Origin: Undaria pinnatifida | Lineage: Eukaryota; Sar; Phaeophyceae; Laminariales; Alariaceae | DNA: 64,000 bases | Assembly (NCBI GenBank): GCA_012845835.1 | Contig: JABAKD010000020.1 | Coordinates: 1,131,936-1,195,935 of the forward strand | Reading direction: 5' to 3' | In this document: piece by piece, positions 6,208-55,820 of the stretch | Numbering within the stretch: the first letter of the stretch is position 1 | Layout: the number at the start of each line of letters is the position of its first letter | The notes under the pieces: model-generated | The model's input: the letters and a program-made list of their open reading frames with translations, nothing else | What the model was told of the DNA's origin: nothing | Databases searched by the model: none | Made by a program: the position numbers and the translations under genes

Positions 6208-9200
6208 CTAGTGCGCGAACAAGAAGCGAAGGTCGTCCACAGTGAGCTTTCCTGTCGACGCAGCATCCCCCCCCACCGTGCTGTCGAATACCAGCTGCTT
6301 CTTTTCCTGTGGTCGGAAAGAGAGAGAGCGACGGCGCACGCCCCCGGGTTTTAGAGGGATATCTCCGGAACACCACTGAAAACCATTTCGAAGGAATCTC
6401 CCGAAAAGTGTTACCAACGTTGGGAAGGAAAGAGTGTCAGCGAGTCGAAAAGTATTAGTTGGGTGCAATCCGCACGTGACTTCTGCGGCAACGAAATCCT
6501 CGCCGAGCATGGAGTGAAGAGTTGACACAGCTACCACACCATACGAAAACAGGAACGTGATGCTCTCCCTCCAGGCCAACGAGAGCCCTAAAATCCAGTC
6601 GACAGCGTGCTCAAGTCAACTGATTCAGCTACTAATATTTTTTCTTCCGTAAATACCGACCACCAACCCTACCATTGATAGAACAACGACAGCGACAATT
6701 CTGGAGCTGCTAGAATATTACCATCAACGCCACCTTCGCTACCAATATGTATCACCCCCCCCAAACGTGCACCGAGAGACTCGTGTTTTGCGACCAACAG
6801 CGGAGGCAATAACTTTTGTCCCAACCAGACACTTGCCTGCAGCTTAATGATGCGCTCTTCGACGGTGTCTTCGATGATGAATCGCGTCGCGTAGATAGGC
6901 TTGAACTGCCCGAGACGGTGCGTGCGATCGATGGCCTGCATTTCGGCGGCGGGATTCCACCACCTGTGCGTTACGGCAGAAAAAGTGACAATAAAAAAAT
7001 ACAATGACAAGAGATCATATATATCACATTATACCTGAGTACGAAGGTAGTATAATCAGCTATAGATGATTAAATAAATTTGCATATTCGACGGAGACAT
7101 CAAGAAAAGTACGTGTCACCAACACAAGCAGAAGGGATCACTACTAAACAAGGTATCAGCAGGACTTTCTTTGCTCCTGCCTCCACTTGGGGTGAGGTAA
7201 GTCGGACACTCAGCTCAGAGCGTAGCTAGCGTTCCGTCGGACAACCATTGTACCAAAAAACGACGCAATAGTAGATTAGAAGCGAGGGCACCACCACAAC
7301 TCCCGGACACCAACGACAACAACCACAAAGCAGAAAATCCCCCATACATACCAGGTATTTGCACAAAGCACAAAAGCACACGCAAACGTTAGCACAAACG
7401 ATAAAAGCAATCAGGAATATTCGTGTCCCCACTCCTCTTGCTCACGGGTCCATGAGGAAGATGTGGTTGGCAACGGTAAGGTTGAGAGCCACGCCTCCGG
7501 CCTTGAGACTGATTAGGAGGACCTTCACCCCCGCATCGTTCTGGAATGCTTGAAGTACCTGGTACAAAACGCATTGCAGGGGGCGAAGGTCGAACGTCAA
7601 CGGTCAGCACCGCTCAGGAACACCAGTGTCGATATTCTTCCCATGGGTGTTGACGTAGTACTGCAGACGATCGCCGGGATTGAAAAGATAAACGAGGCAC
7701 GAACCATATCAAATCGATCCCCAAAATCGAGCAAGGGGCTAGAAACAAAGCAAGACTGAACAAGACCGGAAAATAACTGTGACCGCTCGTGAAGAGTGCG
7801 TGCAAAACGGCACAAGGGGCACTCTGAAAACGCGCCCGCAATGATTGCACGCACCAACACACGCGCTTGACAATCACGGTAATTACCGTGCGCACGGCAC
7901 GAAACGCAGGCCCCACGTGAAGCCGGAAGTGGAGGCCCCATTGTTTCCGTACACGGGTACTGGTTAAGAAAAAAGGTACCGACAAGCATGTGCATGTGCC
8001 CAGTGACTCCGAAAAGTAGCGCCTCTCAACTGTGCCGGCGGTGTAGTCGATTTCGGCCACAATCAATGCCACCTAGGCGACATGAATTGCTCGAGATTGA
8101 ATGAGTCCAGAGACACCTCGCCACATGACACAGGCTGGGTTCGACAACACCACAGTCGACAGGAACTACGGCGTAACGAACAGCGCCATCGAGAGCGCGC
8201 CATTGGTCGCTTCATGTGCGGCCGTTGGTGTGAATCGTTTTGCCTGCCAAAGCTATGCGATCGTCCAAAATGTGGGCTGGCGTTTTCAGCGCCTCTTGTC
8301 CTCTGTGGGACTCAGAGATAGCCTCCAAAAGGTGAGATTTTGGGTATCATCAACCGTCCACACTATGTAACGTAAGAACGCAGTACAAGCAAAACAATGC
8401 TGCGCCTGTGTCACGCACCTCCTTGTACTGGTTGGTAAGAGTGGCACGCCCGAGAAGACGTCAGTCGGCCAGAATGGCACAGCAGTCGCATCAAAGCTTC
8501 TTACCTCTTCACGCTTGTCGACAGACAGGTGGCCCGACAGCTTGCGGCAGCCCACTTGTCCCTTGTGCATGCGGTACTCGATCAGATCCAGCATGTTGAC
8601 GAACTGGCACAATAAAAGCAGAGAAAATTGAATCGAGCACGGAAACCCCCGGGAAGACTCTTACCCGTCAAAAAATGTTATCATGGAAAATGCAAATAAT
8701 GAGCAAACACACACTTGGTAAGGCGCGAGCAGGGGTTACACGCACGGTTGTTTCGAGGTAGCGCAGCAAATATACCCAGCTAAGATCCTACGGGCGATAC
8801 AAAATGGCCATATTAAACCATTGAGTCAGATACATATGTGTAGACGTCCGCCTAAAACAACCCATGCTGGCTTTTTCCTGCCTTCATACCCCTCCCTCGA
8901 ACGCACACCCCATCTAACGCCACAAACGTTGTTGCCCGGCCCCGACGATCGCACTGCCAAGCACAGCGCATCTAATATATGCCGCCGTTTCCCCAAAATC
9001 TTAAGTGGTGCCGTCTACCACAGCAGCAACGGCAACCACATGCGGCAGGGTGCGAGCGAATGGGCTATATGGGGCAATGTAGGATGCGTGCTCGAACAAA
9101 TAGAGCGGTGTGGTGCAGCAGTGGTTACTTGTGTGCATAGGTCAACTCGTGCAGGCGGTCCTCAGACAGCGGCCGAACCTGCGAGAACACGATGGCCTTG

Positions 9201-12200
9201 GCGGCGGGATCCCGCTCCTGCATGAGGTGAACCTCCTCCATCAGCGCCTCCATTTTCGTAGACTATTTAATAGAGTCGAACCAAAGACCCAAAAACACGT
9301 GCAAAGCATCAAGCAAGGACGTCCGAGTTGCGCAGTTAAGGTGGAATTACGGGAGTGGATCCTCACATGCAGAAAAGAGAACTGAATACAAAACCTAGCT
9401 GAAGTAGTACCAGGTACAAGGTAGTCCTTTGTCTCGACGGGTATTGTATTGTATTATATTGTATTGTATTGTATTGTATTGTATTGTATTGATAGGGTAG
9501 AGCTCAACCCGCCAGGAAATCTCGAAAATACGTAATTTCTTGCGATTGCGAACATGGAGCACATTTCGGTTATACCGAGAAAACAAAGGTTACGACAGCA
9601 CCCTTCGCTTATCGCAAACGTGACTAAGCGAAAAAGCAAGATCGTTCTGATCGTTCTGGGTCTCGGAATTCCGGATTCAGCGTACGGCAGATTGTTTCTC
9701 ACGTGCTTTAGTGCCCCAGTCAAAATACAAAAAATTTCATCATCCCACAACAGCCATATTGCGCTCAAAAAAGCGATGGCCGAAGCCACATTTACCATCC
9801 AGACTTCCTCCAATGTTTCACGAAACCTCCGACGCCCTCCCATCCCCGCGTCACCTCCCTGAAGCAAATACATTCAGTGAAACGCCAACTGACCGACTGA
9901 AACTTGCTCAGGTCGATGCGATTGACCACGCTGTGCTTAGTCACGCTGTTCTTGAAGGTGCTGCTGGCATGCTTCTTGTTCTTCACCGTCTTCTTCACGC
10001 TCGCTGCCAACGTCGCCACCATGTTCGCCATCCTCCCCTTCGCTCCATCATTACTGCCGCCGCCACCAGCACCACGGTCTCGTCTTGCCCCGCCACGGCC
10101 GCGGCTGCCATTGCGCCCACCGCCACCAGTCCCTCTGCGCCCGCGTCCATGCCCGCGCCCGCCCCCGACCTCGTCAGACTCTGCCTCGTCTTGGCCGTTG
10201 CAGCCGGGACTTCCTCCGGAAAGGTCGACGGTGAGAGGCTCAGAACACGTGGGGCATTCGACGTCGCCGGGAGCTGTGTCGATGAGTTCTTGCACGCTGT
10301 TGATAAATTGGAATGGAGAGGGCGGGCGGGGAGAGACGACGGCAAATAAAATGTTTACAGCACCAGTACGACGTAAAAAGACAAAAGCGAAACGGGCGAA
10401 GCTCAACGCTCACAACCAGACCGAGTAACACAACTAAAGAGCGGTCGGAAACTGAGCCAGTCAACCCACCAAGTGCGGCAGAAAAAATGCCCGCAAGAAG
10501 ACGATACCGGACGCTCCGCTGGCTCCGAGCAGATCCCGCACGCGTCCATGTCTTCCTCGTCCGAGTCGCCCTCGTCCCCCGTAACGGGCTTAACAGCGCT
10601 ACCAATCGCGCCGCTCTTCCCAGTCGCGGCCTCGACCCCGTCGGACAAGGAATCCGATGAAGTATCCCCCAAGGCACCCGCAGCACCTCCTTCCTTGTTA
10701 TGAGGGGAGTCACCATCGCCGCAGCCGCCGCCACCACCGCTGCTGTCCGTCCTCGAAGCGCGGGTTGCTCGGCTGCCGGGCTTGCCATTCGTCCCGCCTA
10801 CCACGGCGGTTGGCATCGGGGCAGAGAAGCGAGGCGGGGGAGACCCCTGCGAAGGCGTTGTTGCCGGTTGCGCAGAGGATGTGGCGGGCGTCTGGCTCGC
10901 TGGGGAGTTCATGGCCGGCGTCATACCCTCCCGCTTGGTGGCACTGTAGATTACGAGGTACGGGTGGTCAACTGCCTGTCGAAGGCGGATGAGGATCTGG
11001 GGGGGGGGCAGATATCCGGGGGTTGGGGTGAGGGGATAAGCTGGTGGGAGCCGCAACGAGGGCGCCATTGATTGTGCACGTCTTTGATCCCCGTTGGGGG
11101 TTGGATAGTCGCAGCACGACGACCACACCGGTCAAAACTCATCACGTTTCAGCGCGAGCTCCTGGACAGAGCGGGTGTTGTAATGCGAGTACAGAGCATG
11201 TACTCTTTACTCCAGGCGAGCCAAACATTTTTTCCTCCTCCGCGGGTGCTGTGTTGACCTGTTCTCCCGGGCTACGATCGCGAAGCAGTCACCACCCGGC
11301 AGGGTTGTTGCCCTTCCGACATTTCCCAGTAACATCACGTGTGAAAGAAGAACCCCCGAAATACGCCCGACGATGCCCTGGTGCGTTCCACGTCTACGTC
11401 GATTTCACAGTACCTACTGATGTGGACCAGTCGGTAATCGTCCTACAGCTCGATTCACGATAAAATGGCAACCGGCAGGGAAACCGATGCCACGACTCAC
11501 GTCAAAGATGTGCGCGTAGTTGTTGAGGATCGTGCCCGACCCCACGTAGGTGTCGAACTGGGCCTGCGATTGCGTGTAGAGCGCTTGGTAGAAGTCCTGC
11601 GTGACGAGCGATGCAACCGGAGCATCATGACACGACAGACGCGAGTGACAATGGTTCAAATAGCGCAGGTTCACAGCAGAAAGTGTCAGTCGCAACAAGC
11701 TGCAAGCGCATGGTTCAATTCTAGCGGTCTTCACTGTCAACAGCGCCGACGACAACACCACCTGTTGGGCGCCCATGCCATATGGCAATAAACCACAATA
11801 CTGATAGAACCGTTGCAATAACACACCAATGTGCACCCAAAAACAGTACGTTTAGCAGTACTTGTGACAAGAGACCGACGGTGCAGCGATGGCATTGCGC
11901 GCAAGGTTTATACAAAACGTAATTTACGACGGTAAACACACCTCTTCCCTCTCATCCAGGCGGTGCTGGCGCACCCTCACGATGCGCGGGGGGAGGCAGA
12001 TGTCGTTCGATCTGTTGCTCTTGGTGCGCCGCAGCAGAATCTGATCCAAGACCTCTCGCTTGAGCTTCAAGAACGCCTTCTTGCCCTCTCCAACGTAACC
12101 CGTGCGGCTGTTCACGGATTCGGGAAGACATGCGGCCAAAAAAGCGAACAACGCAAATGACCGCAGTTACCACGGGTTCAGGATCGTCCTCGAGGCTCAT

Positions 12201-15200
12201 GGTCAAAAGACTGGTAACAGCGGTGGCTACTACTTGGCGGCGTGCATTGGCGGACTGGCCCTCTAAAACACTAGGGCAGGAAAATATAACGGTGTCTCTG
12301 TCCACCTCTCTCAAAAAAAATAAAACTACGGCTATCTCAGCACCGGGACGCACGTACAAGAGTCAGCATCCTAAAAATACTTTGTATTGAGATTGGGACA
12401 TGTCGGGTACGTAGCCAGACACGTCGCTCACACCCCCACCCTGTTGACCCTAAGAACGGTCTAATGGAAAGACAACGCACAGTGTAGTTGTTAGTACTGT
12501 TGACCCGAGCGTAAACAGGGGGTCGTCGGTCTGTACAATTCGAGAGGAAACCTTACAACATGCACGACCGATGCATCGCTAGAACCAGAAACTCAAGTTG
12601 AATTGTTTTCTCTAGTTTAGTTGAACTTGCAGCTGAACGTGTTAGTGCCTTCCGAGTAGAACACACACGGCCGACGAAAAAACATGCTTCGCGAAGTCGA
12701 CCACCGACCCGTTTCGTCGAAGTCAAAGTTGAACGCACCAGGCGCGTAACACAAATAAAAAATACCGAAGGTGAAATAAAAACAAAAACAAAACAAAAGG
12801 AGCAACGCAACAAATGCGTCTTCCCCGCCTGGGGGTGTCTGTGAAACCGTCCCGTCCTTTGCCCGCTTACGATATGGGGTTGAGGATGTGCCGATTGAAG
12901 TTCGCGTAGTGCATGATCGGGGTGTGTCCACACTCTTCGCACGCTCGCCATTCTGGTCCGAAGCGGTAGTTAAGACTCTTGCAGTTGCACCCCTTGCTCC
13001 GGCACTGGTAGAAGGCATGCGGGTCAAGCCTCAGGAACCGCACGAGCGAGTAAAGCTCGCCCACCTTGCGCAGTAAAGAAGGGTTGGCCGGGAGGTGGCA
13101 GGGAGGGGCCGCGGACGCGAGACAGCGAGGGGAAGGTGGGCAGGGGAAGTCGCGGGGGGGTAGAGACACGTTGTTACCTTCGTCCTGTTAGGTGTTTCTA
13201 GGTTCAACTTCTGACGAGATATGGCGCCGCGACGACGGGACGGAAAATCAGCTCAGAACCGTGTCCTGAAGCAAACGACAGCGTGCATTGGAAGAAAGAG
13301 CACACACCCTACAAGCCATTACGCGAGAGGCCACCACTTTTCTTGAGGGTGTTCGCTTGGCGAAGGGCTACGGCACTTTCCGGTGTTCTTGGACCACTTG
13401 TCTTGAACACCAAGCGACCTCTCTCCCAGCCAACCCACGCCGTCGTATCACTCATAAACGGTAAGCTAATCTTCCGCCTGGTGTGAGCTTATTATCGGCT
13501 GAACGGGAAGCATGCGGCGCGCCAGCGTTCGCCCGATAAAAGCACCGCGAACCTAAAAATTTCCTTGGTTTTTGGCTCTTGCAAGTACAAGCCGCGGTCG
13601 CCCAAACCATAACCAGGCATGGCAGTCCTAGCATGAACGTCATTGCCATCACAACTCACCCTGTTTTGCAGGGGTGTCCCCGTGAGACACCACTTGTACA
13701 GCGACGTCAGAGCGAAGACGGCCTTGGCGGTGGAGGTGGACCGGTCCTTGATAAAATGGGCCTCGTCTAGAATAATGCGCTGCCATGAAATCTGCATTTC
13801 CCGCAAGACGTCGGGGCAAGGGCGCACGCAGCGGAAGCGGGTCGAGCTGAACTACTGAGGGGAGTAGCGCGGTTCGCGCTGGGTACGGAGATATCACTGC
13901 CTACAACACCCCTCCAATGAGGAACACCGAAAGATCAATCGAACGAGGACCTTCGAGGAAGGCCCGTTCACAAGCAGCCACAAACGCCAAGCAGAGTGGA
14001 AAGCCTTTCGTCCGACCGAACCGTAAACCCGCCTCAGACACGTACGTGTGCGTACGTGAATCTCCATGCTCCGGAGCAACCAACGCCACATCCGTCGTCA
14101 CTTTCACCAAAAAAACGGAGGATGCATGGTCATTACCTGGTGCTACAAGGGGTGTACCCGTGTCAACACCTAACAAAGCGTCGCTCGCTGCAACGTCGAC
14201 ATCAAGCAGCACAACCGCTGCAACGTTACCGCGAAGGAGCACAGCCGGCGAAAGCAAAAAGGGCGTCTGGGCCTACGAACCTCTTGCAGTACCCCTGGCT
14301 CCGCGTTATCGCGCTTCTCCATAACTTCCTTGAGCACTTTTGCGAACGCGGCTTCCTTGTACGATCGCCCCTCAGACTCGTCGCCGCTGCTGGAAGAACC
14401 GGAGCCATCGCTGCCGCTGGCCCAGTCGCTTGCGGAGTCGTCGGCGGCTCTTTTCGTCTGCGGCATTGCGGAGGTAACGGGACGTTAACTGGGGGTCATC
14501 GAAAGGAACGATGCTTGCTATTAATAACGAGTTAGCAAAAACGCCCGTCAACAGCGATAAATTCAGCAGCTGGAGTAAATCCGCGAACAGGGGGCTGTGT
14601 GGAGTAGGCGAAGGCGAGCGCATTTCCCTCGAAGCTGATATTGTGTAGAGATTTTGCCACCGAAACGATTCAGTGATATCCTAAACAGTGGACAAACGTG
14701 AAAAACGTCGTAACGCTATGTCCGATACGTGGCACCCCTTCACAAGCTTTGGCAGGTAGCGCAGCTCAAGCCAAAAACAGGAATATAAACCGTAGGAAGG
14801 GTAGTTTCGGGGCCCCACCTTGGCCCCCTTGCCCTTCGCAGCCCTCTTCTTCTTCCCCTTCTGCTTGTTCCGGTTGCTGATGTCTGTCGTTCCTTCGAAG
14901 TCGCTGTCACGGTCCTCACCACCTTTGCGCTTCCGCTTTCCCTTTCCGTTTCCCTTCGCCCTTCCGCCGCCTCTTCCCTTGCCGTCGCGCGTGCTCTTCG
15001 AAATGTCTGTCGTACCACCGTCCTCGTGGTCGTCGTTCTCGGACTCCTCTCTGCGGCTAGTCTTGCCCTTTCCTCTCGAGCGACCCTTCCCACCTTGTGC
15101 CGGTTTCCTCTTCTTACTCGCCGAGGATCTTGGGGTTTGCGCGTCCTCGGAAGAGTCTTCCTCGTCCGAGCTGTCCACCGCCTTGTCCTTGCGCTTGCCT

Positions 15201-18200
15201 TTGGCAGCCGATGACGCGCGCCCAGGTCGCGTGGACGACTTGACGCGCACGCGAACCTTCGTTGTTGCGTCATCGCTCAATCCATCGCTCTCAACGTCGT
15301 TGTTGTCGCTGTTCTTGCCTCCTGCGCCTTTACTGCCAAAGCCTTTCCGCTTCGTGCCCTCGGTGCCGCTTCTACCGCCACCCTTACCCTTATTCTTGAC
15401 CTTGATGTTGATTTTGGTGGTGCCGTTGTCGCTGTCGCTTAGGTTGGCTTTCTTCCTCTTTTTCCCTTGGTTTTTCCGCCTCCCTGCACGTGAGGGCCAA
15501 CCACGTCACAACATACCATGAATTCAAAGGCAAAAACACAGCGGAACGCGAAGGCTGAAGCAGCAAGCGGAACCCATAAGTGGCGACAGAAGTGATGCGA
15601 TGAACGATAAAACAGTAGCGCTTGGGGGGAATAGGGCTGGGAGACTTTTGTGTACTTGTGTGTGCTTGGGTTTCGGGAAAACAATCTCTGTCACGGGAAT
15701 GTGTGTTCATGCCTGCAGCACGTGTCCACATAATCAGCGGTAAAACGACCCATGACAGTTAAATAACATAACCTCTCAAAGACGGAAACGGTGGATTCGG
15801 CTTTCGGTACGCCCTTAGGCTTTCCCATGGCTGCCGCCACTGGTTGTCGTTATCACAGATAGTGCGGCATCAGCACCAACAACGCAATAAACGCAACAGC
15901 ACAACGATGGCAACTCTGTGGCGCACAGCCCCAGCCAACTCCATCGTTCGCCACACCAAACGCGTTCCCTTGTAACGTTTCGGCAAGCCACCTATACCAT
16001 ACTCGCTGCATACGACACAGTCCGGACCGAGTCTATCAACATCACTGCAACACCACATCACAGAACGGCGTCGAAGGACGGGCCTAATTGTAGCTCGGAA
16101 AGAAAACGGTTGCATGGGATCACTCACAGGATGAGCCCCCTTTCCTCTGCGTCTTCGCTTGCGCCTCCGTCCTCTGAGCACCCTCGCCGCAGAAGTACTT
16201 GCGATGAGTAAACATCTTGTCCGGGTACAGTCTACAATGTGAGGGCACCACATGCGCAACAAAACGAACATTCAATGAAGAAGAAAAATCCTGGATACGT
16301 TCAGTTTGAGATACGCCAAGCAAGAGAAACAACGTAACATGCACCGCCGGTCCCAAACCTGAACCACCCAGAGCTGGACGGCAGGCCATTATAGTATCTC
16401 TTTTGGTACCCACGTTGTATTGACCCAAAGAAGCGGAAAGCGCGGTCCTCTATCATTCACCAATTATTGTGAAAAAGGTATACCACCATCCACACATTAT
16501 AGATTAGGAACAACACCCGAGAGTATAAGCAAGTGTGGTTCATCCTTCCCCAAGCGTGTCGTGAATCTCCCTACGCCACGGTTCGGACCCGAGCAGTCCG
16601 AGAAGCGAGAAGCTTGGCCGTATGCTGCAAGCTTGACTATTTCGGCTTCTTTTTCCCCTCAAGTCCAAATGGGGATACTATACATTCTGCAAGCATGCTA
16701 GCTTCCCCCTCCCAACAGCTGCCTCTCGTGATCACCACGAAAACAGCCCGTCTACACAGTAGTCGAAGGTACGGCAACGGCGAGAGAGCGCCGTTCGGGT
16801 GAACTCCTGTACCGACGCGTTCGGGGACAAAGTACTAGGAAGAAGTGTGACACAACATTTTCAGCGCCAAAAGGGTGAAGCGCTCACGTTCTTCCACAGT
16901 CCGGACAAGCGACCTTGTTGCCAGCGTAAGCCTTTCGGTGCTCGTTTTCCACGATGGCGTACGTCGTCAGCACCACGTCCGCCTTGACCAGGTCCTGGAT
17001 AGCGCCGCGCGGCGGTCACGCGGAGGGCGCGGACTGACACCTTAAACCACATCCGGGCCGCCCAGCGACCAGCGGTCTTACCGTAGACTACCGTATGCGA
17101 TTAACCAACGCAATTTGGGTAAGAGATCGCCGATTTCGGGGCAACGAGTCTCAGCAATGGGCAACCCGCAATTGGACGCCCCCAGCGAACGTAAACAACG
17201 CTGGGGTCACGAACGCCGGAGCGTAGAACGGTGCTCGTGACAGCCACATCCGAAGAAAGCACCAAGAAAGAATAACGAAAAAAAAACAAGATAAAATCCG
17301 TTCTGAAAGCGTCGTTCACCTCCGCAAGCGCCGCCCTCTTCGCCCCATGGTGAATGACGACCTTCAGGGTGCCCGGCTTCACGAACCGGACGAGTTCGCT
17401 TTGCCACTGCTTTAGGGCAATGGTGGGGCACACGACGAGCGTGCCTCCCCGAGACCCTGCCGAAGCTCCCCCTCGCCCCATCTCCTCCTCTGACTGCGCC
17501 CACCGCTTCTGCATGGTTTTGTCCTTCGCGTTGGGGAGGTTCGCCACTAGCGTGCAAATCGCCTATTTTTAGAAACATTTCGTGAGTTACGAGATGGGGG
17601 AAACTAAATCGACTGTGCGCTGCAATGTGCTGGAGGGTTTGAGGACTTACGGGACTTAAATGGACCTGGTGGACCGCAGCCGCTTTCAGAGCAAAAGAGC
17701 AATACTGAGCGTCGCTTTGGGTGGATCGGTTCTGCCGATCATCGCGCGCGTGTTATATATGATCGTCTGCGCATGTGGCCTAAACACCTTCAAATGGTAA
17801 TGTTATTCATGAAAACAATGGGTCTGTGCCATTGTGAGATAGAACATTGCCAGTCGCGACGCATGTAGTGGTCGCACAGCTTAAGCCAGGGCTGACGACA
17901 TGGCGACGCGGTCAGAAAGAGGTATCGAGGAGGACGGCAAAAGGAGGGTCTAGGAAGCGCGATGACTACCCTCTTCTTGCGACGACAAAGCATCGGATTA
18001 AAAAAAACATGATGCTCACATATACACATTTCATTTTCAAAGACGCCGAGACATGCGATCAAAACATACAGTAGCACGACTACCGTTCAATCATGCCGTG
18101 ATATTCTACCGCGACAAGAGCCGCGGTTTATCACCTGGAGAGTTTTTCCCATGCCCATTTCGTCCGCCAAAATTCCCCCCTGTGTTGATCACCAGGAACC

Positions 18201-21200
18201 AGCCGTACGCGGCAAGAGGAGGAACGGGGGAAAGACGCATGTACGGGAGGTCAAGGCTCAGCTAGAGCATTGCCGTACGCGGCAAGAGGAGGGACGGGGA
18301 AAGACGCATCAACGGGAGGTGAAGGTCCAGCTAGAGCATTGCCGCAGCCACGCCATCTACGTATACACCACCTCCCAACGCACGAGCGACAGCGCCAACC
18401 AAAAAGGCGCTTTTCGCCACGCCCAAGGATCTGGAACGAGAACGCTATATCTAGCCGCCGTACCATGCCACACAATACGTTCACGCCACCAACGTCGGAA
18501 AATAAACCAAGGCACATGTCTCGCCGCGCAGCAGTACCACTAGCCCGACGCTGGCTATTGAGTTGCAACAGTGGCGTCGGGTAAAAGCGCCACATACACA
18601 CCTTGTAGGGAAGCTTTTCTTGGTTCAGCATCCACGCCAGCCTGGCTCACACAGGCGGGAAAATCAGCGTGGTGCGGAAGGGCAGGACGAAACGGAACAA
18701 CGCAGGGTCTCGACAGTTACAAGTGCGTCGAATCGGTGCGAGATGATACGCTGAAGACGCAGCAGCTACCCTTACGATTAAACCGTTTGCTGAATGATCC
18801 CAGCAATGACACCTGTGCGCCACTCCCCGCCTCCCTAGGCACGATGAGCTAAGCTCACGAATACCGCTGTGTCCACACGCACGTTACAAACGAACACACT
18901 TGGCTCGCCTCCCTCTCCACAACTTTCTCGCCATCGGAGAACCCGCCAGCGGGAACCTGCCGACCGGCCAAAAGCGTTTTTCGATATTCCACGAACAAAC
19001 AAGCTGATCACTTTCCTTTTGCGGGGTGGCGACGTGGTTGGACGCACACACCCGCAAAATGACATCCCTCTCTTTCCCACACCCCAACATATTTGTATTG
19101 CAAGATTTCGACAACTAAACAGGAGAGCGCGCCGCCTCACCCTTCTGCCTGGTAGGGAAGGAGGGTAGCCATGACCTTATCGGGACATGAGGCTTTCTCC
19201 GTCCATCCCTTGCGCACCAAATCGTCGGGTGTGATGGGCTCGTACATGTCGTCCACCTCACCCTGGCTCTTGAGCACTTGTTGCTCAAGGAGGGGCTGTG
19301 GCACGCATGCGGGGGTTTGCGCAAAACGAGAGAGTGTTGTTTGTCGCCAAGGGAAATCGAGACCGGGTGGGCTGCTTCGGGCGCTGTCAGGCAGGGCTAC
19401 GCTGTTGGTGTGTAGTTGTAATTTGATAGAAAAACCGACGCTGTATACACTGAAAACAAAAAATGAGATGCCCCCCCCCCGTTTTCCTTGGTTGGAATCC
19501 ACGAGAGATACGGACAATGAACAGTGAAACGCCCCCCATCGGTCGGGTTTGCAAGAGAGATGGCTGATCAAAAGAGAGCGAAACCCTGTTATATTACAGG
19601 CAGTAGGCGTGTCCAGTGTCACGAGGGGAGAACGGAACGCCACGCCACACAATACATTGGAACGAAAAAAACAGGGCAGAGGGCACGAGAGTGCTTCACC
19701 AAGTTACTATTGTATATTCAACCATTTGGAGGGTGCTGTGGTGGCATTGTCTGGCCCATACCTTTCATTTAAGTTATCCAACATCGTCTAGTTCACAAAA
19801 GCTGCCTCAGCAAACCCCGAATACGAACAACCACCCTCCGTAGCAGTAATAGTAATAGTATTGGTAGTAGGGCTTGACGGCGGTGCACCGCACATGCTCG
19901 CCTGAATAGCGTCGTCCAGGTCTTCGAAGCCTTCGACCTCTTCGGCCGTTTTGACTTGAAATATGGTGCACTGCATGTGGTGCCACTGTGTGGACGGGCC
20001 CCAGCTGCCCTCCGTCACCACTCCGACCTTGAGCGCGTCCTTGCTAATCTTTTCGTCGCATCTGTCGTACGGGTTAGGTTACATATTTTATCAAGATTCT
20101 TAAAAAAAGGAATCAATAGACAACGTGGATCGGAGGCGATGGCAGGTACGGGCACCATTCATCGCGCTTAGCCCCTGAAAAAAGATACCCCCGCTGTTGG
20201 AGATTACGCGCTTTGACCTAGTTTACCATATTCTTTGCAGTAGAGAAAATGTTTAACATGTCGATATGGCATGTAGAACTCGGTATTGGTAGTCTTGGAG
20301 GATGAGTCAGTGCTCCTCTATGCTACAGGCAGTCTCCTTGGTGACGCGCGTCGTGCGATGAGACGTGTTGCATGTGCTTTGGGGTTTGCAGTCATGCGAT
20401 CCACCGGGCGGAGAGATGGGGTGCAGTGTGACGGTATGAACCCGATTCGTTTTCATAGTAAATGTTCAGTAACGCGTTGCCCGATGCAAGCAGGAAGCAG
20501 ACGAGTAACGGACCCTGTAACAGCCTCCCATCTCGAAATTCGTCACCCGTATACCAGGTATACAACAGGAGCTTACTACCACACAGCAACACGGTTGCTC
20601 TCAACGCCTCCTAAGCAGCACGTATAAGAGTCGCCCATTTCTGCATGCAGCACTTTCCCCGACATCTTCTCCTCCCTCGTAAAGCCCTCTCCCCCCGTGC
20701 CGCCCCCTCTACGCACAAAACGCAGCAAACTCGTTCAATGCTCACCCAATCACCCAACCACCCACCTCCGACACAACGCCCGTCCACTCTTGGCGATCTC
20801 GCACACATATCTCATCGCAGGCCCTTTCCCGACCTTCACCGACGCAGCCGCCCCCGTCCCCGCCCCGCCTGCCCCAGCAGTGGAAGACGCCCCACCCTCA
20901 TAGTTTCCCGCGCTCGCCCCTGCCGCGGCAGCCGCGGCCTCATTTGCCTTCGCGACAGAACTCGCCGCGGTAGAGTCGGTCTTAGAACCTTTCTTAGGAC
21001 CGTTCTTCGAGCTGATCCCGGTGTAATTCCCCGAGAGTGTACCATTGGGCGCGCTGCGGGCGGTTGCTTGCGGCTTCTTTCCGGCGGAGGGTTTTCCGCC
21101 GGTTGAAGAGGAGCGTTTCGTTTTTTTTTTGGCCATTTCGAAGTCACTGTCGTCGTCGTCAGTCTCATCGCCTTCTGACTCGGCTTCCTCGTCTGCTGAT

Positions 21201-24200
21201 GAGCCGTCCTAAACGCGTCAGATGTAAGCAGCAAAAACAAGGACGTGGGATGGTGTGGCGTGGTGTGGTGTGGTGCCTTCAGAAGGAATAGGGTGCGAGG
21301 AGATAGAGAGACTGTGCGTGAGTCAAGGCAGGTATCGGCCGTGAGGTGGCGCGTTCGACACGGGAGTATTCGGCGGACGGGAGTCAACCCACGGCGTTTT
21401 TCGTGCTCATGTATTCCACCAAGGAGAAAAAATGATTTCGGCAGCCGGCATTCTTCGCTAGACTCTCACAATGGCGGCGCATTACTGTATTCCCTCGAGG
21501 TTGTCGGAGCGAGGCTGCGAATGCCTTCAAGGATCTCCGGGCGCAACGCCTGCCCTGAAGCAAGGCCTACGTTCGTTATTAGTGCTTTATGGAATTATTT
21601 GTGGCTGAGCTCATTCTGGTCCGACGGTGATGCCTTGCAACCGGCACTACAGCGCGAACGTAACCACCGCGGTGCGGTTCAAGCTGTGATGGGTTTGGGA
21701 TATTGTACTGCGTACTACCGGTATACGCTGGTCACCACGCCGAAAGGGTTGTGACGGACGTAGTCAGTAAACCACACGGGACGGGTGTACCTGCAAATAT
21801 CGAGCTCTATGGTTGGCGATTCTAGAGAGTTGCCACTTCAACAAGTAAAACGGAAGCAAGCACGATATACTCGGCACGGCAGACTCTCGTCGTTAACGCG
21901 GGTACGTCGCGGAACGCATCCAAACAGGAAAATCGAGAAGGAGTCCAGTCCCAACAGAAGGAGAGACCAACAGAAACCGATTGTCCATGACGCATTAAAT
22001 GGATTTCAATCCTAACCCTGATATAAAGGAGACGCTCTGAGTCGGACAATAATGCACTTCAGCTGCTTCCGAATAAAAGCTCTAAAGGAATCCACTGGAA
22101 CATGGCACACGCGCCTTTACGCGAAAAACACTCAGTACCACTCGCGCGACGTAATTTATGCTGCAAGCATTTGCAGTAACTCGCAGAAAAGAAGCTTACG
22201 TTATCGCTGCCCACCTGATAGTCGCTGTCGTCGCTGTTATCTGTAGCGTTGAGGGAACAGTCCGTCCAGGAGGCCCGCGGGAAGCACGAACAATATCGTG
22301 GTACATACAAAGAGCAATGGACATGGATTTAGACGAGTTAATAGGTGGAACAGCCTCGACTACTGCGGGGGTGCCAAAGTTTGATACCCTGATGAACGAG
22401 ACGACGCTTTGAAAAGTGTACCTGGCATGATTTAGGCAAAGCTGAGTGTCGAACAGGTGGTTTGCGCTGCAGCTTTAGAGATATTCGTACAATCGATAGG
22501 ATTGCTGCGTAGACGGACGGCAACAAAAACAACAGCAACACGAGGTCCTGCAAAATGGCAAACGAAACGAGTGTACATCGCTAACATTCGAGTGGAAGTC
22601 GTACCCCCCTCCGTCTAGCTCGGCTGCTGTCGTACGCAGCATAGTTACCATTTTTCAGCTATCATAATTTACCGAGCGCGTGGAGAGGGGACTCGTACAG
22701 GTAGAGTGCCTACAGGAGCCACAGATGCAAAATGCTAAAAACTGAAAGCACCAGGCACCGCCCTACAGTATACGACCAGGATTGACGAGCATAGGTATGG
22801 AATGACTGCACTGGTTTTGATTAAACAGCGTATAGTAGTGCTGTTGGTGCTCTCGCTGTACTGGCACATTGCGAGAATTCCGTTTCCATTGCTACGAAAA
22901 CAACTCCACCCGCGTACGCAGAGCACCTTCGATGGGCATGGTTCCCCACACGGCTGTAGCCTGAGCAGGAACGATAATAGCAGGAACGATAATACCCTTC
23001 GGGCTTGAGAGGGAAAACGGACGAAGAAAACCGACGAACACAGCATCGGCCACAGCAAGTCACGCCGGCTACCGGGTGCAAGATATGACAGGATTTGTGT
23101 CCGAGCCAGGGCGCAAGGAATTGTGCGGCGCTACTACCCGTACTGCTGCGCGCTCATACTGGACCAGATAGTTGGCAATACCGCACTTGTTTCGCTCGTG
23201 TCGCACACTGTACCCGGGGCCCCAAAATACCGCGCGCTCGATGCAAAGCGATGCCATTAATTTGTCGTAAGCGAAAAACGTCTTGGTAAAGCATCAATAT
23301 ACCCGCCCCCCCAAAGAAAAACATACCGCGCGCTCGATGCAGAGCGATGCCTCGAATTTGTCGCCGGCGAAAAATGTATCATTGGTAAAGCATGTACCGG
23401 TACGTGGTGCTGCAGCACGTTGTTAGTAAAACACGTACGAGAGGGGGGCTGGAAAATCATCCTGGAACCCCGCGGCGTGACCTTTGTTCGCTTTGAACGA
23501 CCTCATGTGACAGACAACGAACCTTTTGTGAGATGAGCACCAACATGATAACATGATGGGCGATCGATGCTCTGTGCCGCCTCGCTCATCGTCTCAAGAT
23601 TTACACACGAACCCTTTTGGGATTTAGAGGGAAAAAATGTCGAAAACCCCCGCGATAATACAGCGTCCGCCACACATAGTGATCCGCAATTCGGTGCGAG
23701 TCGACGAGGGAAGAGAGGGCTGGATTATTATCGCGACAACAACGGAGGCGCGTACCGTTAGTGGGTAAGGGGTGTGTGCTTAGTGAACCCGGATCTAAGC
23801 TACGTCTAGGAAGGAGGAGAAAGGAAAGTGCGAAGACAACACGTAGAAGAGATGAGCAAAAAAAAAGAAAGCGCCGCGTTACGAAGTATCGCAGGAGATG
23901 TATGTGTCCGCGCTGCAATGCAGGGGGTACGACAGGCGTGCAGCGCTATTAATACCACTCTTTTCGGCCGCTCGTTCTTCCTAGCCGCTTGGTTAAATCG
24001 CGCTCGTCGATTTTGGGCCGGTATACATGTGTCTCGCACCTCTTCCTGGATCGTCAGCAAGATCATCGTCCTCTCCTTCGTCCTCTTCCATGTCCTCCTC
24101 CTCCACCAACTTGAACCGAGTCAAACCAGGACAAATCACGAAAGGGACGAGAACCTTATCAAGATATGCATGGTAAACGCACAGCAGCGTCACGAAGTCA

Positions 24201-25493: not shown

Positions 25494-25575
25494 TAAATAC
25501 ATATATACATACATATATACATACATATATACATACATGCATGCATGCATACATACATACATACATACATACAAA
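25494..25575 (+). repeat. Microsatellite (TACA)n
   Basis: About twenty TACA/TATA tetranucleotide units with a short ATGCATGCATGC core, followed by a TACCAGGTA motif at 25583. Confidence 0.92.
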
Positions 25576-25680
25576 TTATAATACCAGGTAAATCGTCACA
25601 TATATTTAAATTTTAGTAATCAGCTGATATCATCTTGTTATCCTTCTAGGCGTACATGCCGTAGCTCCAACTCATCTCCG

Positions 25681-25720
25681 CCCCCCCCGCCCCCCCCCCC
25701 CCCCCCCCTCCCCCCCCCTT
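25681..25720 (+). repeat. Poly-C tract
   Basis: About 38 of 40 bases are C, interrupted by single G and T. One of about ten long C or G runs in 25.6-28.9 kb. Confidence 0.9.
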
Positions 25721-25954
25721 TGTTCCTCGCCCAGGTCGTTCAAACGCCCCACTTACAATCGAAATCGGCCAGAGTATTAGAAACTTCTACGCAGTTGATA
25801 TCACGTCATTATCTTTCTAGCCATCCATGACGTAGCTTTTATTCATCCCCCCTCCCCCCCTCCAACGCCCCCTCCTTCCCCACACCCCGCACGATCGCCT
25901 AGACCCAGCACCGCACGTATAGCAAGCCCCTACATATATATATATGATTAATAC

Positions 25955-33178: not shown

Positions 33179-35623
33179 GAGGGAATTGCCGTTGACGGCT
33201 GCAAACAATTTGAATTTGAAATTTGCCGGATCGGCAATAACAATTTGAAGTTGAAATTTGCGAAGCGGACCAAGGCTAGTGCGGGAGGAGGCTCCGCCAA
33301 CAGTGGGGGTGGTGGAGGTTCAGGATCAGGCGTGTGGAAGCTGGTCGGGCAAGAACGGGACTCAGCTTCTTCTGGCAATCCTGATTGGCCGTGCCCGAGC
33401 AAGGGTTGTGACGGCTTCCTCATCGCACGAAATAGGAGAAACAGGAGTTCCCAGTACGCTGTCTGCGACACCTGCTGCAGGAGTGACGAGCCTTCCACAT
33501 GCCAAGCTTTTCATAACCTTAACAAGAAGCACTGGGGAAGCGGCGACAACCCTCGTGTGTGTGACTGGTGTGACGCGGACACCTGTGATTCACCTTCGAT
33601 CGGCGTCCCTAACGAAGGAGCTGAGAGCTTGTCGAAACGTGAGTTACATTTCTGTTGTTGTGCTGTGATTTCTTTTTCATGCGTACAAACACACTTTAAA
33701 TTTTGCATGTACGAGTATGATACGTGTACGGGGCAGTCCCGTCATCGCGGTGTAAGCGGGAATTGTACAAGTACTCAGGTCTACGAGTAGACCTTTGCAG
33801 TGACGCTGTGTGGTGCGATTTCTTTTTCATACGTACAGCCAAACACACTTACTTCATGTATGTACGACTACGAGTACGGGGCAGTCCCGTCATCGGGGTA
33901 AGCGGGGGTTGAACAAGTGGTTCATGCAGTGACGCTTTGTGCTGTGATATAAACACACGTTTTGGATGTACGACTACGACTACGTGGTATCTATACATGT
34001 AAGACGCAATGAAAACGGGCAAGTCTCATCACGGGGGTCAGCCAGGGTTGTAAAAATGTAAAAATGGTCCATGCAGTAATAAATAACACAGCAGCATGAT
34101 ACCTCAGCACCAGTCGCAGTACACACTGGAGGTTGATATATAGCAGTAAACAGAAGCTGAAGTTAACCTGGGTGATGCTGGAGAGCAGTCCCGTGATTGG
34201 GGTTAGCGAGTTGTTCATGTAGTGACGCGGTGTACTACTACTGTTACTCATTTTTCATACAACCACATGAACTCTTTGTATTAACGAGTACAAGTAGGGT
34301 GCGCAACCTCTTCAGGAATCGCAGTACAGGTCGGTCGTAATAGTGTTGATAGCAGCAGTAATAGAGTAGTACCGAACAATATATACAGCAGGTACTGTCT
34401 CTTACCCTTCGTTGTCGGTATTCCGCCGGTAGGCCTTATATAGCAATATACCGGGGCTTACGCTTACCAGTTGCGACTGTGAATCCCGTTCGTTCCTGTC
34501 CCAGTGGTGGTTTCATAGGTGTTAGCAACGTTGTGGTACCAGGCAGGGCTTTGCCCATAAACGACCGCTTTCATTACAACAGCAGTGTTAAATTGTACGA
34601 CTTCCTTTCCAACTTTGGAAATCGACGACAGCTACGTGGCCTTACTATTTTGAACATTCACTGAACGCAAGGTATTCCCATCCGTTGTTGTCGTTTGCAG
34701 AATCCCTGCGAAGCAGCCGCCGAGGGCCGCCAAGTCGGCGAGGACATAAACACGAAGTGCACCGGCGACATCAAGGTCGGTGACCTCCTGAAGAAGGCAG
34801 GCGACCACTTGCTCGATATACATCCCGCATTCCATTCCCACGGTTCCACGAGGGCGTTCGACATCGAGGTACGTTCTACTCTTATCTTGCGTCCTGTGTG
34901 TCACGAGTCGAGACATCCATGTCTCTTGCTCAAGACTAGGGGATGGCGTGCGGATATAGTCTATGAAGTGCGGCTCTTTTTCCAAGTACCAAGAGCAAGT
35001 ACAACAATACCACAACAATTACTAACAGCGTAAGGAACTCCAATAATTTGGATGGTTACGACGTCTGCTGGAGAGAAGTACGAATACTTTTTTACACATA
35101 CTTATGTTATAAGGCTTAGTTTGGGTAAGCTATTGGTTAACCTGTGCAAGTGGTCAAACGGACTAAAAGTACCCCACTAATACCTTAACAAATGGCGTCG
35201 TCGACAGACCATGGGTTTTTGGGTCGTGGGTTCGATCCCCACATCCACCATAATAAACTTTTTCAGATTTTCCCATGGCGAACTTGAAAAATACTCTCCC
35301 CGGCTTACCCAGGAAATGAAACGGCTTGGATAAATGACAGGTCCGCCCGTATATACGGCCGACCTTCTATCCCGCCGTTTAAGGGGGGGAGAGTGTTATA
35401 AGGCTTAGTTTGGGTAAGCTATTGGTTAACCTGTGCAAGTGGTCAAACGGACTAATACCCCACTAATTCCTTGACACTTATCGACGTTCTCCCGCCCTGC
35501 TTCAACGTTTGTGGACAGATCCACAAGACCATCGACAAAAAACAAGAGTGCAAGGTGCTGGGTACCTCCGCTGAGGAGGAAGAGTCCAAGCAAGCCTGCA
35601 TGCTCCTTCGGAAGCAATGTTGA
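33179..35623 (+). CDS. Cys-rich hypothetical protein, 3 exons (5' end unresolved)
   Basis: Exons about 33179-33638, 34717-34868 and 35519-35623 join in phase and end in TGA. Exon A encodes KASAGGGSANSGGGGG, then a Cys cluster: WPCPSKGCDGFL, YAVCDTCCRSD, PRVCDWCDADTC, spacing that suggests a zinc ribbon or paired knuckles. Exon B has AEGRQVGEDINTKCTGD, KKAGDHLLDIHPAFHSHG. Exon C gives IHKTIDKKQECKV, then EEEESKQACMLLRKQC at the stop. There is no in-frame ATG in exon A, so at least one upstream exon is missing. Donors are GTGAGT and GTACGT; exon B could instead begin at 34701, but that breaks phase with exon A. A TRIM element sits in the last intron. No family recognised. Confidence 0.6.
35105..35476 (+). 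mobile_element. TRIM-type LTR miniature, well-preserved copy
   Basis: A 372-bp element with terminal repeats at 35105-35190 and 35394-35476, each starting TGTTATAAGG and ending CA. Two bases after the left repeat is a primer-binding-site-like TGGCGTCGTCGAC. A purine tract (AAGGGGGGGAGAG) abuts the right repeat, and a 4-bp CTTA duplication flanks the element. The interior (about 200 bp) codes for nothing and includes a tRNA-T-arm-like GTGGGTTCGATCCCCAC. The terminal repeats are nearly identical, so the insertion looks young compared with 31072-31415. It lies in the last intron of the Cys-rich gene, about 40 bp from the proposed last exon. Confidence 0.85.
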
Positions 35624-44100: not shown

Positions 44101-47100
44101 TTTCCAGTTGCAAAGGCGTCAATTCGGGGTTCCCACTGTAGTTGAAACCGCTCATTTTTTTACTGTCGTAGATGGAAAGCTACTTCGGAAGTGAGAGCAG
44201 AGCAGGCCCTTTTTGTCACAAGAAAAACGGATAGTTCAATAGGTGCTGTGTTTGGGGCATGACATGGTGACATCATGACGTATTTATCGCCGGCGATCCG
44301 AAAGTAAAATAACTCCTCAGTTACTTGACTATGCCTCATCATATAGCTGATGCTATATATATTAATAATATACTTCGGAGTATTCGTACGACTTACAGGA
44401 TATATTGCATGACAAACTGGTGCATTCCTTCCAAAACCGTCAGATTTATCCCCTTGAACGATTCATAGTTTCCACGCACAGATTGAGTTGCCCTGCCCAT
44501 TCCCCCCCCCCTCCCTCTTGTTCAAACTCATGCCCCCACGTCCTTAAAATCCCCGCCCTGCCCTCACCGATTATACGACTTACAGGATACGTGATAAACT
44601 GATGCACTTCCTTCCGCGGTTGTCAGATTTTGTCTCCCTCAAAAACCGGTTTTATAGTTTCCGCGCACAGACTGCCTAACATCACCCTGTTGACCCTGAT
44701 AGCTACACTGTAGTTCAAAGGGGAGTCGTCGACCTATATCCTTGATGAGGACACACAACCCGTAATACGCGCGATCGGAGTATCACACAGCTTGCAAAGC
44801 TGAGTTTCGACAAAATCTTCGATCCCACAGCTGGAGTGTATTTTTATCTTCATAATATATATTCATAATAAGCATGACACTCGTTCATTTTTGCAGGAAG
44901 GGGGACAGCTGAATTGGTGCAGTGTGTGGAGGCATGACATAGGGTGCAGGAAAGCACACGCCACGCTTGCCTTTTCGTCGGCAGCGTAGCCCCAAATGTC
45001 CCGGCGCATGTCTGCGTGTAGTCTCTCTGCGAACGCTTCGACAAAGCGGTCCGTCAACGCCTGGCCAATCAAACAGAATCAAACGATACGGGCGTTACGC
45101 AGGACGACAGACATGTCCAGAAAAAGCACGGCTACAGCACGGTACGCTTTTCGAAGGTTGCTTGAGTCTGGCACGTCAACAATGGCCTGGTATCAAGACC
45201 CTTCGAAACACTTTCCGATAATACAGTACAAAACGTACTATGATACTGTGTAATTAGCACACAGCCTAATACTGTAGAACAGTAGAAATCTATTTGCAGC
45301 ATGTAACCTATCGCTGTGGCACAGTAGAAGCCTCCTATAAACATAACACGTAGCTTACTGCTGCAGCAAACACCCAACCTCGCGTCACAAATTTGGACAC
45401 AAATCACAAATTTGGACACAAAACAAAAAACAGGCAAAACAATAAAGCGGACAAAATAAAACAACTGGAACGTCAAAGCGCAGACATCCCATACACTACC
45501 GTCAATTCAGTCAGCGAAGATAAATTTCCTGGCGGTAGCACTACACATGAACATATTCCCGCATGAGCAAGCCACGGCAGCCCTGTTGTGTTCTAAAACC
45601 GGGTTACGATTGACACACGAGATAGAATTGACACATGAGACCGACATGGAAATACTAAAAGGGCAAAAAACAAGCGCACAAAAAAAAACACAGCCACCCA
45701 AGCGCTGCAGGTTCGTCCCCGAAAGAGAGCACGCCACTTGAGCATGAAAAACGAACGCCATCCTACGCAGTAGTAACGCCAAACAATCAAGCCGGAAGCT
45801 TTCGAACCTGGACCATAATCTTGGAGTAGTCGTCGTTGAGGTCCTCGAACTCCTTCGCCAGCTTATCACACCCCATGCACGCTACGGCGAACATGCCCAT
45901 GTAGTCCGCCACGCCGCTGTCCTGTTAACGGAGGGGGGGGGGGGGGAAGGAGCCGACAAACCATCGTTGTAGATGGACAAAGACGCTTAGTCCCACAACC
46001 ACAACACTATGGCAGAAGCAAGGGTAGCTGGGAGTCTTGACAAACATACCACAAAGAAAACTGCAAGAATACATCACCAAACGCTGTTATACATCACCAA
46101 ACGTTTCAGCGTCAGGCCAACAAGGGTGAAAAAAAAAAAAAATGACTTCGTACTTCGAACTATTGTTTTAGGACCTTTCCGCATCCCACAGAGACAGCGT
46201 ACTGCTGTGTCACTAGTACAAAAGCGCACGAAGCATACGTTCAAAGCAGGTACAGGCGCTACTGAAGTACAACCCATTCGGTCAAGGCCGCGACTTGGAT
46301 GGACCTCGCACCTATTAGTAGGTGCCAGGTATATGATATTTACCGTTACAAATACGGTAGTTTGCGTCTTCGTGTCTGACAGGCGAGTTTTCGGCTTGAC
46401 CAGTGCTGTTCATTAACAAAATACACAAGTCAGCGTGTCGCTTGCCTTCAGCATCCAACCACCCAATCAGTTAGCCGCCAATTTCAATCAGCTTATAGCC
46501 CCATCTTTTAAGATGCGATCATAGTATACCAGTTTAGATTATAATACCAACACAAAGTTTCCCTTCGGGATATGGTTCGCTTGAAATTCCGGGGGTGTCG
46601 CAAGACGAAAAGGGGTGGGGGGGGGGTGGAAGCCAAACAAAAAAAAAAGCCACCCGGCACAGGTCGCCTGTTGTTTTGCGGGTTTCGGTCCATTCCTTCC
46701 AAAAACTGCGCATTTCCAACTGTTTCACCTTGGGCGCGATAAAGTCCGCTTGGCTAAGGTACGGGTCGTCGGACTCCTTTTCCGCCTGCTGCCGAAGCAT
46801 GCAGAATTTAGCAAGAACCTCTTCCCTGCGAGGAGCAGACGGACGAAGAGGGCGCGACAAAAAACGAAACAGGGCCGTCCGTGAACGCGTAAACACCTAG
46901 CAAGAAAAAAACGGCGAGTTTGTCCAAGCGATGCCACGATAATCTTCACAAAAATACGCAGCCGTGAGATCGAGGACTTCGTCGAAACTGATATTTGCAA
47001 GCTGCTTGTTTGATACCGCACACAAAGGTATGTACAGCTTCCTGTACGCGATACTAACAAAAAGGCCAACGAACCTTTCAGAAAGGGGCTCGGTGATAAT

Positions 47101-53100: not shown

Positions 53101-55785
53101 GTTTCCTGGATGCTGGTTGCTTCTGCTATGTATGCTGTACTCCTACGGCTTGCCGTTTGCGGTTGTACTGCCGCTGCTGCTGCTTGCTGTTTTTGTTGTA
53201 GTTATACGTACGAGCAGCGTGGCTGCTGTTTTATATACTTCTGCTGCTGCCGCAGCCATATGGCAAGTAGTGCAGGTGCTGCTGCTGTATGAACAGCTAC
53301 GAAAAACGGAACTGTGTGTTCCTTCATGTTTAAGGTTCTTCACGACACTCAAAACTTCGGCACCCCTGAGCAATACGTAATGTTCCTCGCATTTACGGCC
53401 TCTGTTTTGCCTTCTCGCATGACATCCTCGACCGTTACGGGCATACGCGGAGCCGCAGGCGGGCGTCAGTCCGCCGCGGCGAAACCCCTTTCGTATATGT
53501 ATATGTATGCGCCATGGAATGTCCAAATATGATATTTAGAACTTCATATTCGTATTAAACTCTCGGCATTACTATAAAATTGAATAATGTCGAATCGAAC
53601 AGCTACAACTTTTTGCCTTTTTCCTCGTCCAAGTGCTGCCCTGACCTGCCCGAAGCGTGGGCGCCGGCGAATGGGCGAATGCCGGCGCCCATGCGGAGCC
53701 CTTGTATGTTTATATATACATGGAGACGCTGGACACGAACGCACTCGTCGTTTTTTTTCTTCTATCGTTATACATGGGCCCCAAAAGGGGACGCTGATTG
53801 AGCTACAGCATGACAAACCGTATATCCCACTGTTCTATTCACATGGTGCCTGAGGGCAAGCAGCAGAATTCTCAACTCCGAACAACGGGGAAAGTCACGG
53901 AGCACTACTATTCCTATTACGTAAATCGATCGTTTTGTGGGCCTCCTACCGCTTGGCACCCGGAATCCACGCCGACCTGATCGAACCCAAAACACCGGTA
54001 TTATTACCTTAGCGACGAAAACCATCTCGTCCAGGGACGGGGTGATGAGCCCCGACAGTCCCACGACGTCGACCTTCAGCTCGATCGCCTTGGCAAGGAT
54101 GTGGTCGCATGGCTGCATCACTCCCAGGTCGTACACCTGGGCGAGCGGCGGAGGCGGCGGACGCGGAAAAGGGATGACAAGCCAGGGCGCAAGAAAATAG
54201 AACAAGTTGGTTTGAGCTGTTGTTAATGCATGTCCCGCGCGATGACGTTTCTCCGTGGTTTTTGTTTGGTACCGTTTTCGTTTTTCGTTCCAAATTTTCG
54301 CCTCTATTTTAGTCTTTGCTTTCGTTTTCATACTAATTTTCACTTACCAGGTATATATTTGTTGTCATATTCATTTCCGCTTTCATTTTCATCTCCATAA
54401 ACACAGAATTTAAGCCTAACAGAAAACGCCATACAGACGCCACAGACACAGCAAAAACACAGAAGACAAAGACACAGTAAACACACGAGCCAATACACAG
54501 CAAACACAGCAGACACAGCAGGCAGGCACAGCAAACACAAGAAGACAAAACAAACACAAGGTCACGTCATACCTTGTAGTTGTTGCACCCCAGCACGACC
54601 GCCACAATGTTCTTCCCGATGTCGTGAACGTCGCCCTTCACCGTGGCAATCAGAATCTTACCCGCGTACTGCGAGTCATCGTTCTCGTCCACGCTGTCGG
54701 GGTCGATGCCGTCCGCGATCATCTTTGCCAGTTTCTCGGCCTCCATGAAGGGGAGCAGGTGCGCCACGGCTTTCTTCATCACGCGGGCCGATTTGATCAC
54801 CTATGCGTCGGGTCGGTAACGAGAAGGTGAAGAAAGAAGGTTGTATATTACGAAACACAATAGGAGATGGAGAAGAGGAGGAGGAGGAAATCCCATGCAT
54901 ATCTTACAAATCATACGACTCATATACCGTATGCAGTGTTAAACACGAGCAACTGGGGATTTGTAGCTCAGGCGTCACAGTACGGGACCTGCAGATGTGA
55001 GCCAAAAGAGGTGGGAAGCAACGGGGCCAACTGAGTTGCTTTTTGCATATACCGCCCGCGAGACCATGAACCAACTAATGTGGGGGGGGGGGGGGGGGGG
55101 GGGGGGATATCAACGAGAACGAGAGGACAGAGAGGAAGAAAATCAAGCACAACACGAGGAGAATTGGCAATACGAAAAAACGAAAATCAAGAGAAGAACA
55201 AGAAGCATCACAACAACAACAACAACAACAACAACACCAACAACAACAACAACAAAAAGAGAGGAGAACGAATACCAACAAAACCGACATAAGCAAAGAA
55301 GAAACAACAAAACCTTAATCCATTTCCAACTCCCAAACATATCCTACTCTATACCAAGTCCAAGTGCTTCGTCCCCATGTCGGGAGTGGGGCACCAAACA
55401 TGCTCAAGGGGTTGAAAACCAGAACACAAACATCAACAACATCGCCAAACTTCAACATCAACACCAACAAACAACTCCAACAACACCAACAGTATGTCCG
55501 CGGATGTGCTACCGCTTGTGTACGTGCTAACCCATGTGCTTCCAGATTAGGTGTTTTCACAGGTGCTCACCAACAACACCAACGCCAAGACCTACAGTAT
55601 GCTCGCAGGCGTACTTGCACAAGGGCTTGCAGACGAGTTATACCAGGTGTATCATACGGGTGCTCACCAACATCAATCACCCAACAACAGCACCACCACC
55701 ACCCACAACAGTAACACCACGAGCACCACCACGAGCACCACCAACCAGAACCACAACAACAGCAACTGCAACAACACCAACAACC

Positions 55786-55820
<35 letters not shown>

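Follow-up and report, generated by a model that had tools for sequence, protein, structure and literature searches.

The 64,000-nucleotide stretch of Undaria pinnatifida DNA analysed here (the window) contains a predicted minus-strand gene that probably represents a genuine fusion. In it, a PARP-type zinc finger (zf-PARP) lies just upstream of the motor of a SNF2 translocase of the RAD16 type, in which a RING E3 is embedded, and the finger would serve as a weak helper contact to DNA. PARP1 and DNA ligase III detect DNA breaks with fingers of this kind. The gene model (24681 to 6208) was built by hand from the raw sequence and comprises 24 exons encoding 1475 amino acids, starting with an acidic/basic N-terminus and a single PARP-type finger, which are followed by SNF2 lobe 1, the RING and helicase lobe 2. 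Exon boundaries were picked by eye, guided by known RAD16 motifs, and the assembled model was checked by script: the 24 joined exons form a single open frame of 1475 codons whose only stop is terminal. As this choice was made by eye, an open frame and fitting phases count as supporting evidence and not as independent proof.

The finger is divided between two exons. Exon 4 (20766 to 21208, minus strand) encodes an acidic and alanine-rich stretch and the first part of the finger through C229 (Pfam match from residue 220, about position 20800), whereas exon 5 (19902 to 20061, minus strand) encodes the second part, from C232 to H259-x2-C262, plus a tail. They are separated by intron 4 (20062 to 20765, minus strand; gtgggt...acag), a phase-2 intron inside the finger, and the last arginine codon of exon 4 is finished by exon 5. 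In the spliced model the ligands are C229-x2-C232-x26-H259-x2-C262, accompanied by AKSGRA, EKI and W257. The sequence-only reading had described a CxxC-X26-HxxC finger with AKSGRA, EKI and W-H-x-x-C signatures; the spacer of 26 was correct, but the last signature is actually W-x-H-x-x-C, given that the second histidine of WHHMQC is the ligand in the alignment with PARP1. Its identification of a PARP-type finger was confirmed by a profile search with PF00645, the 281-residue N-terminal piece scoring 54.0 bits (E 2.9e-14) and the whole 1475-residue model 51.5 bits (E 1.7e-13) against a Pfam curated cut-off of 39.3 bits. Exon 5 by itself, as found in a six-frame genome search, scored 35.1 bits (E 1e-5), which is under this cut-off. 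Only one zf-PARP finger was identified by Pfam in the model. The spacer between the second and third ligands, which we take to be the base-stacking loop, is 26 residues long. This is the lower end of the family range of 26-37 given in the available part of one study (PMC3094755), and the base-stacking loop would thus be short in the RAD16-class finger. When the finger was compared with the PDB, 15 distinct sequences were matched at E<=10, all of them named PARP or ligase III, and the best were PARP1 (1.3e-12, both fingers), ligase III (1.3e-6) and a poly(ADP-ribose) polymerase (1v9x, 4.4e-6), the last being an Arabidopsis protein according to the same partial source (PMC3094755).

Whether the finger exons belong to the RAD16-class gene was addressed by coding and splice-site scores. 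A codon score was trained on exons 6-24 and compared, for each exon, with 5000 intron windows of equal length. In their true frames exons 4 and 5 scored 0.426 and 0.474 bits per codon, above intron-window maxima of -0.122 and 0.091, respectively, and in both exons the true frame outscored the other two frames. A chance motif is ruled out by the Pfam score together with this coding score. Splice sites were scored leave-one-out against 2709 GT/GC sites and 1000 AG sites; donors 4 and 5 fell within the top 0.4% and 1.0%, and acceptors 4 and 5 within the top 16.6% and 3.0%. The acceptors of intron 1 (80.8%) and of intron 3 (67.5%), the latter being where exon 4 begins, ranked poorly, which leaves the model less secure over exons 1-3 and the first part of exon 4. 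Middling acceptors were also found in the helicase body, in introns 13 (54.3%), 15 (41.9%) and 19 (45.9%).

The soft spot of the fusion model would be the junction between finger and helicase, which is formed by a GC-AG intron (intron 5; 19296 to 19901, minus strand; phase 0, CAG/gcgagc ... ccacag) and leads into exon 6 (19141 to 19295, minus strand), encoding a linker and the start of the SNF2 lobe (LLPYQAEG). GC donors are a minor class. In the model 21 of the 23 introns are GT-AG and the other two, introns 5 and 23, are GC-AG, with donors at 19900-19901 and 6835-6836 on the minus strand. If intron 5 were retained, the reading frame would continue for 37 codons before a stop. It is therefore conceivable, if quite improbable, that the locus makes two products, with exons 1-5 and the retained intron giving a short zf-PARP protein and RAD16 beginning separately downstream. 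The GC donor of exon 5, the 37 codons of open read-through and an internal ATG within exon 6 would fit this arrangement, but donor 5 and acceptor 5 rank high among their respective sites (top 1.0% and 3.0%), GC-AG is reused at exon 23, the reading frame is preserved across the exon 5/exon 6 junction, and no ATG precedes DDM in the open frame that surrounds exon 6 (19137-19703). On the basis of the frame and splice evidence, it is also unlikely that exons 4-5 form a separate upstream gene. The earlier proposal of a finger spliced in phase into the N-terminus of a RAD16 homologue is thus upheld at the level of gene prediction by the open frame, the splice scores and the coding scores, and the combination of zf-PARP with a RAD16-class body probably reflects a true fusion, as a predicted gene.

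The remainder of the protein has the domains of a SNF2/RING helicase. Pfam recognised SNF2-rel_dom (191 bits), Helicase_C (75 bits) and a C3HC4 RING (29.5 bits) in RAD16 order, with the RING between the lobes. On the minus strand, Walker A (DEMGMGKT, residues 355-362) lies in exon 8 at 18141 to 18164 and motif II (DEAH, residues 805-808) in exon 14 at 13756 to 13767. The RING (residues 1145-1185; PF00097, E 6.6e-07, cut-off 21) is encoded by exons 18-19 at 10245 to 10540, minus strand, with one intron inside (10469-10297), while the helicase C lobe (Pfam, residues 1305-1419; PF00271, E 8.8e-21) occupies exons 20-23 at 6837 to 9262, minus strand, up to the GC-AG donor CAG/gcaagt. Among the 14 Pfam families matched at E<=0.1 in the 1475-residue model there was no HIRAN. 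A shortened core compared with the PDB had Rad5 as its best match (6.8e-33). Furthermore, two cysteine-rich inserts, CPxC...H...C and CxC...CxxCGH, occur at residues 475-495 and 866-886 and may be typical of RAD16. The probable assignment of the body to the RAD16 class is based on the domain order, the absent HIRAN and these two inserts. Exons 12-13 (14281-15483, minus strand) encode a stretch of about 280 residues (516-796) rich in lysine, serine, glycine and acidic residues, which falls within SNF2 lobe 1, after the CPDC...H...C insert and before DEAH.

Several other features were observed in the window. Pieces of a cobalamin-dependent methionine synthase, apparently a neighbouring gene, are found at 46534-58888 on the minus strand, with pterin-binding and activation-domain matches and a B12-binding match of 28.2 bits, below the cut-off of 32.1. 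An open frame at 33179-33790 on the plus strand carries the cysteine-rich pattern PSKGCDGFLIARNRRNRSSQYAVCDTCC and had no Pfam match at E<=0.1 when a piece with an inexact start was used as the query. Long simple repeats of catacatac units and poly-C lie upstream of the RAD16-class gene at 25500-25760.

The likely behaviour of the finger on DNA was considered by aligning it with PARP1 finger 2, for which mutational data are given in the available part of PMC3094755; the ten finger-2 letters used in the alignment match the residue names in that text. Changes at K119, S120, R122, K134, R138 and W157 lower DNA binding, K134I being milder (PMC3094755). These six residues align to K223, S224, R226, K238, K242 and W257, with five of the six identical and lysine in place of arginine at R138. 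A second group, K131, G135, K141 and K142, is common to finger 2 and ligase III and different in the weaker PARP1 finger 1; single changes in this affinity group had intermediate effects, and the double change K141I/K142I abolished binding under the conditions of the test (PMC3094755, in part). Only one of these four is kept in the Undaria finger, where they align to K235, D239, V245 and V246. This mismatch bears on the probable strength of binding and not on zf-PARP membership, as PARP1 finger 1 also differs there. The contact surface thus looks largely kept, yet most of the affinity determinants look like those of finger 1. Taken together, the residues of the finger point to weak binding like that of PARP1 finger 1, not to an autonomous nick sensor.

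A working model for the fusion can be built on what is described for RAD16. In yeast, translocase activity is described for a complex that contains Rad7 and Rad16, and Rad16 acts as a RING E3 (PMC3116912, available part). The Undaria protein would translocate along DNA and ubiquitinate proteins during global-genome excision repair as a RAD16, and the finger may add a contact with base stacks exposed where DNA is nicked, gapped or sharply bent, as in intermediates of incision or excision. Judging from its contact residues, the finger might favour interrupted or kinked DNA and, as a weak helper contact, could position or retain the motor there. It is also possible, though unlikely, that, in line with the sequence-only reading, the finger alone recruits the helicase/E3 to strand breaks as an autonomous nick sensor and so replaces a damage-binding partner such as Rad7/Rad4. 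The retention of all ligands and five of six key contact residues would allow this, and from the case of ligase III it has been argued that one finger suffices for single-strand-break recognition (PMC3094755, in part). However, D239, V245 and V246 stand in place of G135, K141 and K142 of finger 2, the double change K141I/K142I was enough to abolish binding under the test conditions of the same study, and RAD7 interacts with Arabidopsis RAD16 (PMC10454142, available part). A weak helper contact appears likelier than a free-standing break sensor, since most of the affinity-setting residues resemble PARP1 finger 1 and not finger 2. At the other extreme, the finger could be a relic, either degenerate or binding protein, that has no function on DNA, as the divergence of three of four affinity residues and the presence of a single finger in the model might indicate; this seems very improbable, since every zinc ligand and five of the six contact residues are kept and both finger exons are coding-like in codon usage. 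The helper contact therefore remains the preferred reading of the finger.

The distribution of PARP-type fingers in the rest of the genome was examined in a six-frame search of 511,146,479 bases in 68 contigs. One zf-PARP candidate was found, namely exon 5 of the RAD16-class gene. A profile search of the same genome identified a PARP-like locus on contig C21 (11604503-11627313, plus-strand frames scanned), with a PARP catalytic exon at 11627161, a match to the PARP regulatory domain some 9 kb upstream of it that contains one TAA as read, and two WGR-like exons recognised by eye at 11604503 and 11616348. The 14 control genomes gave no match to zf-PARP, PARP catalytic or PARP regulatory profiles, and hence provide no positive control for these searches. 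In the plus-strand open frames of at least 35 residues in 56 kb around the PARP-like locus, neither of two finger half-motifs was matched, and a loose C..C-H..C pattern had two matches in the same frames, one being poly-cysteine and the other having neither the AKS nor the W signature. A small profile that included the window finger gave 14 weak matches in the 56 kb (best E 0.12, opposite strand), and in the window it recovered both finger parts at E 6.2e-24 and 3.5e-5, a partly circular result. These data suggest that the PARP at this locus may lack fingers, in a type of search that intron-split fingers can escape. A more speculative and rather doubtful scenario is that a break sensor has shifted from ADP-ribose signalling to excision repair, such that the genome's PARP is fingerless and the sole copy of the finger sits in RAD16, where it would guide the translocase/E3 to interrupted DNA.

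Relatives of the N-terminal region were also sought in other sequence collections. The N-terminal 515 residues matched 29 stretches of prokaryotic genome contigs by pattern, none of them a relative by tblastn; a 301-residue query had no pattern match in viral contigs; and the 51-residue finger matched 47 viral stretches by pattern with no relative among them, all three results saying little about algae. A 10-residue pattern was absent from viral contigs and occurred once in prokaryotic genome contigs. This single match (L001), on a Prochlorococcus contig, is a 524-residue SNF2-like open frame that appears SMARCAL1-like by eye and has no finger, and it was rejected as a relative.

In open-access literature, neither the phrase "PARP-type zinc finger" together with RAD16 nor PF00645 together with PF00176 was found, and zf-PARP did not occur in the 25 listed of 48 papers that contain two of zf-PARP, SNF2 and RAD16. 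The words 'zinc' and 'PARP' are absent from the main text on yeast and Beauveria Rad16 (PMC11205155), and 'PARP' is absent from the text on Tetrahymena Rad16 (PMC9786623). The available parts of three papers make no mention of a PARP-type finger for the RAD16 proteins of yeast, S. pombe, Arabidopsis, Beauveria or Tetrahymena (PMC10454142, PMC11205155, PMC9786623). To this extent the sequence-only reading was right that yeast and plant RAD16 proteins lack the finger, several described RAD16 proteins being without it in these sources. Finger and motor are thus each of a known type, but no description of the two combined was found in the open-access papers searched. The fusion may nevertheless be common in related species or visible already in annotated algal or oomycete proteomes.

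A few repair enzymes are known to carry PARP-type fingers. If the fusion is true, equipping the motor/E3 of global-genome excision repair with such a finger would link strand interruption directly to chromatin ubiquitination or remodelling, and one protein with the finger present or absent would offer a simple test system. If conserved among algae, it would inform how UV-exposed organisms wire damage sensing.

Among the closest known systems are yeast and Arabidopsis RAD16, SNF2 translocases with a RING that act in global-genome excision repair. SNF2/ATPase, RING and helicase-C domains are described for yeast RAD16 and likewise for S. pombe RAD16 and AtRAD16, whereas AtRAD16b is without the RING, and Arabidopsis RAD16 physically binds RAD7 (PMC10454142, available part). 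Similarly, yeast and Beauveria Rad16 are alike in domain architecture, with RING and helicase domains (PMC11205155, in part), and a RING is reported for Tetrahymena Rad16 (PMC9786623, in part). The Undaria model shares SNF2 lobe 1, the inter-lobe RING and the helicase C lobe with yeast and Arabidopsis RAD16 (PMC10454142, in part), but differs in its extra N-terminal PARP-type finger and in the approximately 280 residues (516-796) in lobe 1 before DEAH. RAD5/HLTF proteins also combine SNF2 with a RING, from which the Undaria model is set apart by the lack of HIRAN among its 14 Pfam families at E<=0.1. With fingers 1 and 2 of PARP1 (PF00645), the Undaria finger has in common the CCHC ligands, the AKS-x-R motif and a tryptophan near the histidine ligand. 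However, PARP1 carries two fingers on an ADP-ribosyltransferase and the model one finger on a helicase/E3, and the spacer is 26 residues in Undaria compared with 28 in PARP1 finger 1 and 30 in finger 2 (alignment rows). The principle of a PARP-type finger fused to a repair enzyme is already known: DNA ligase III, with one finger, and plant ZDP, with three, also carry PARP-type fingers on a DNA-repair enzyme, according to the available part of PMC3094755. In these proteins the partner of the finger is a ligase or a phosphatase, whereas in the predicted Undaria protein it is a SNF2/RING protein.
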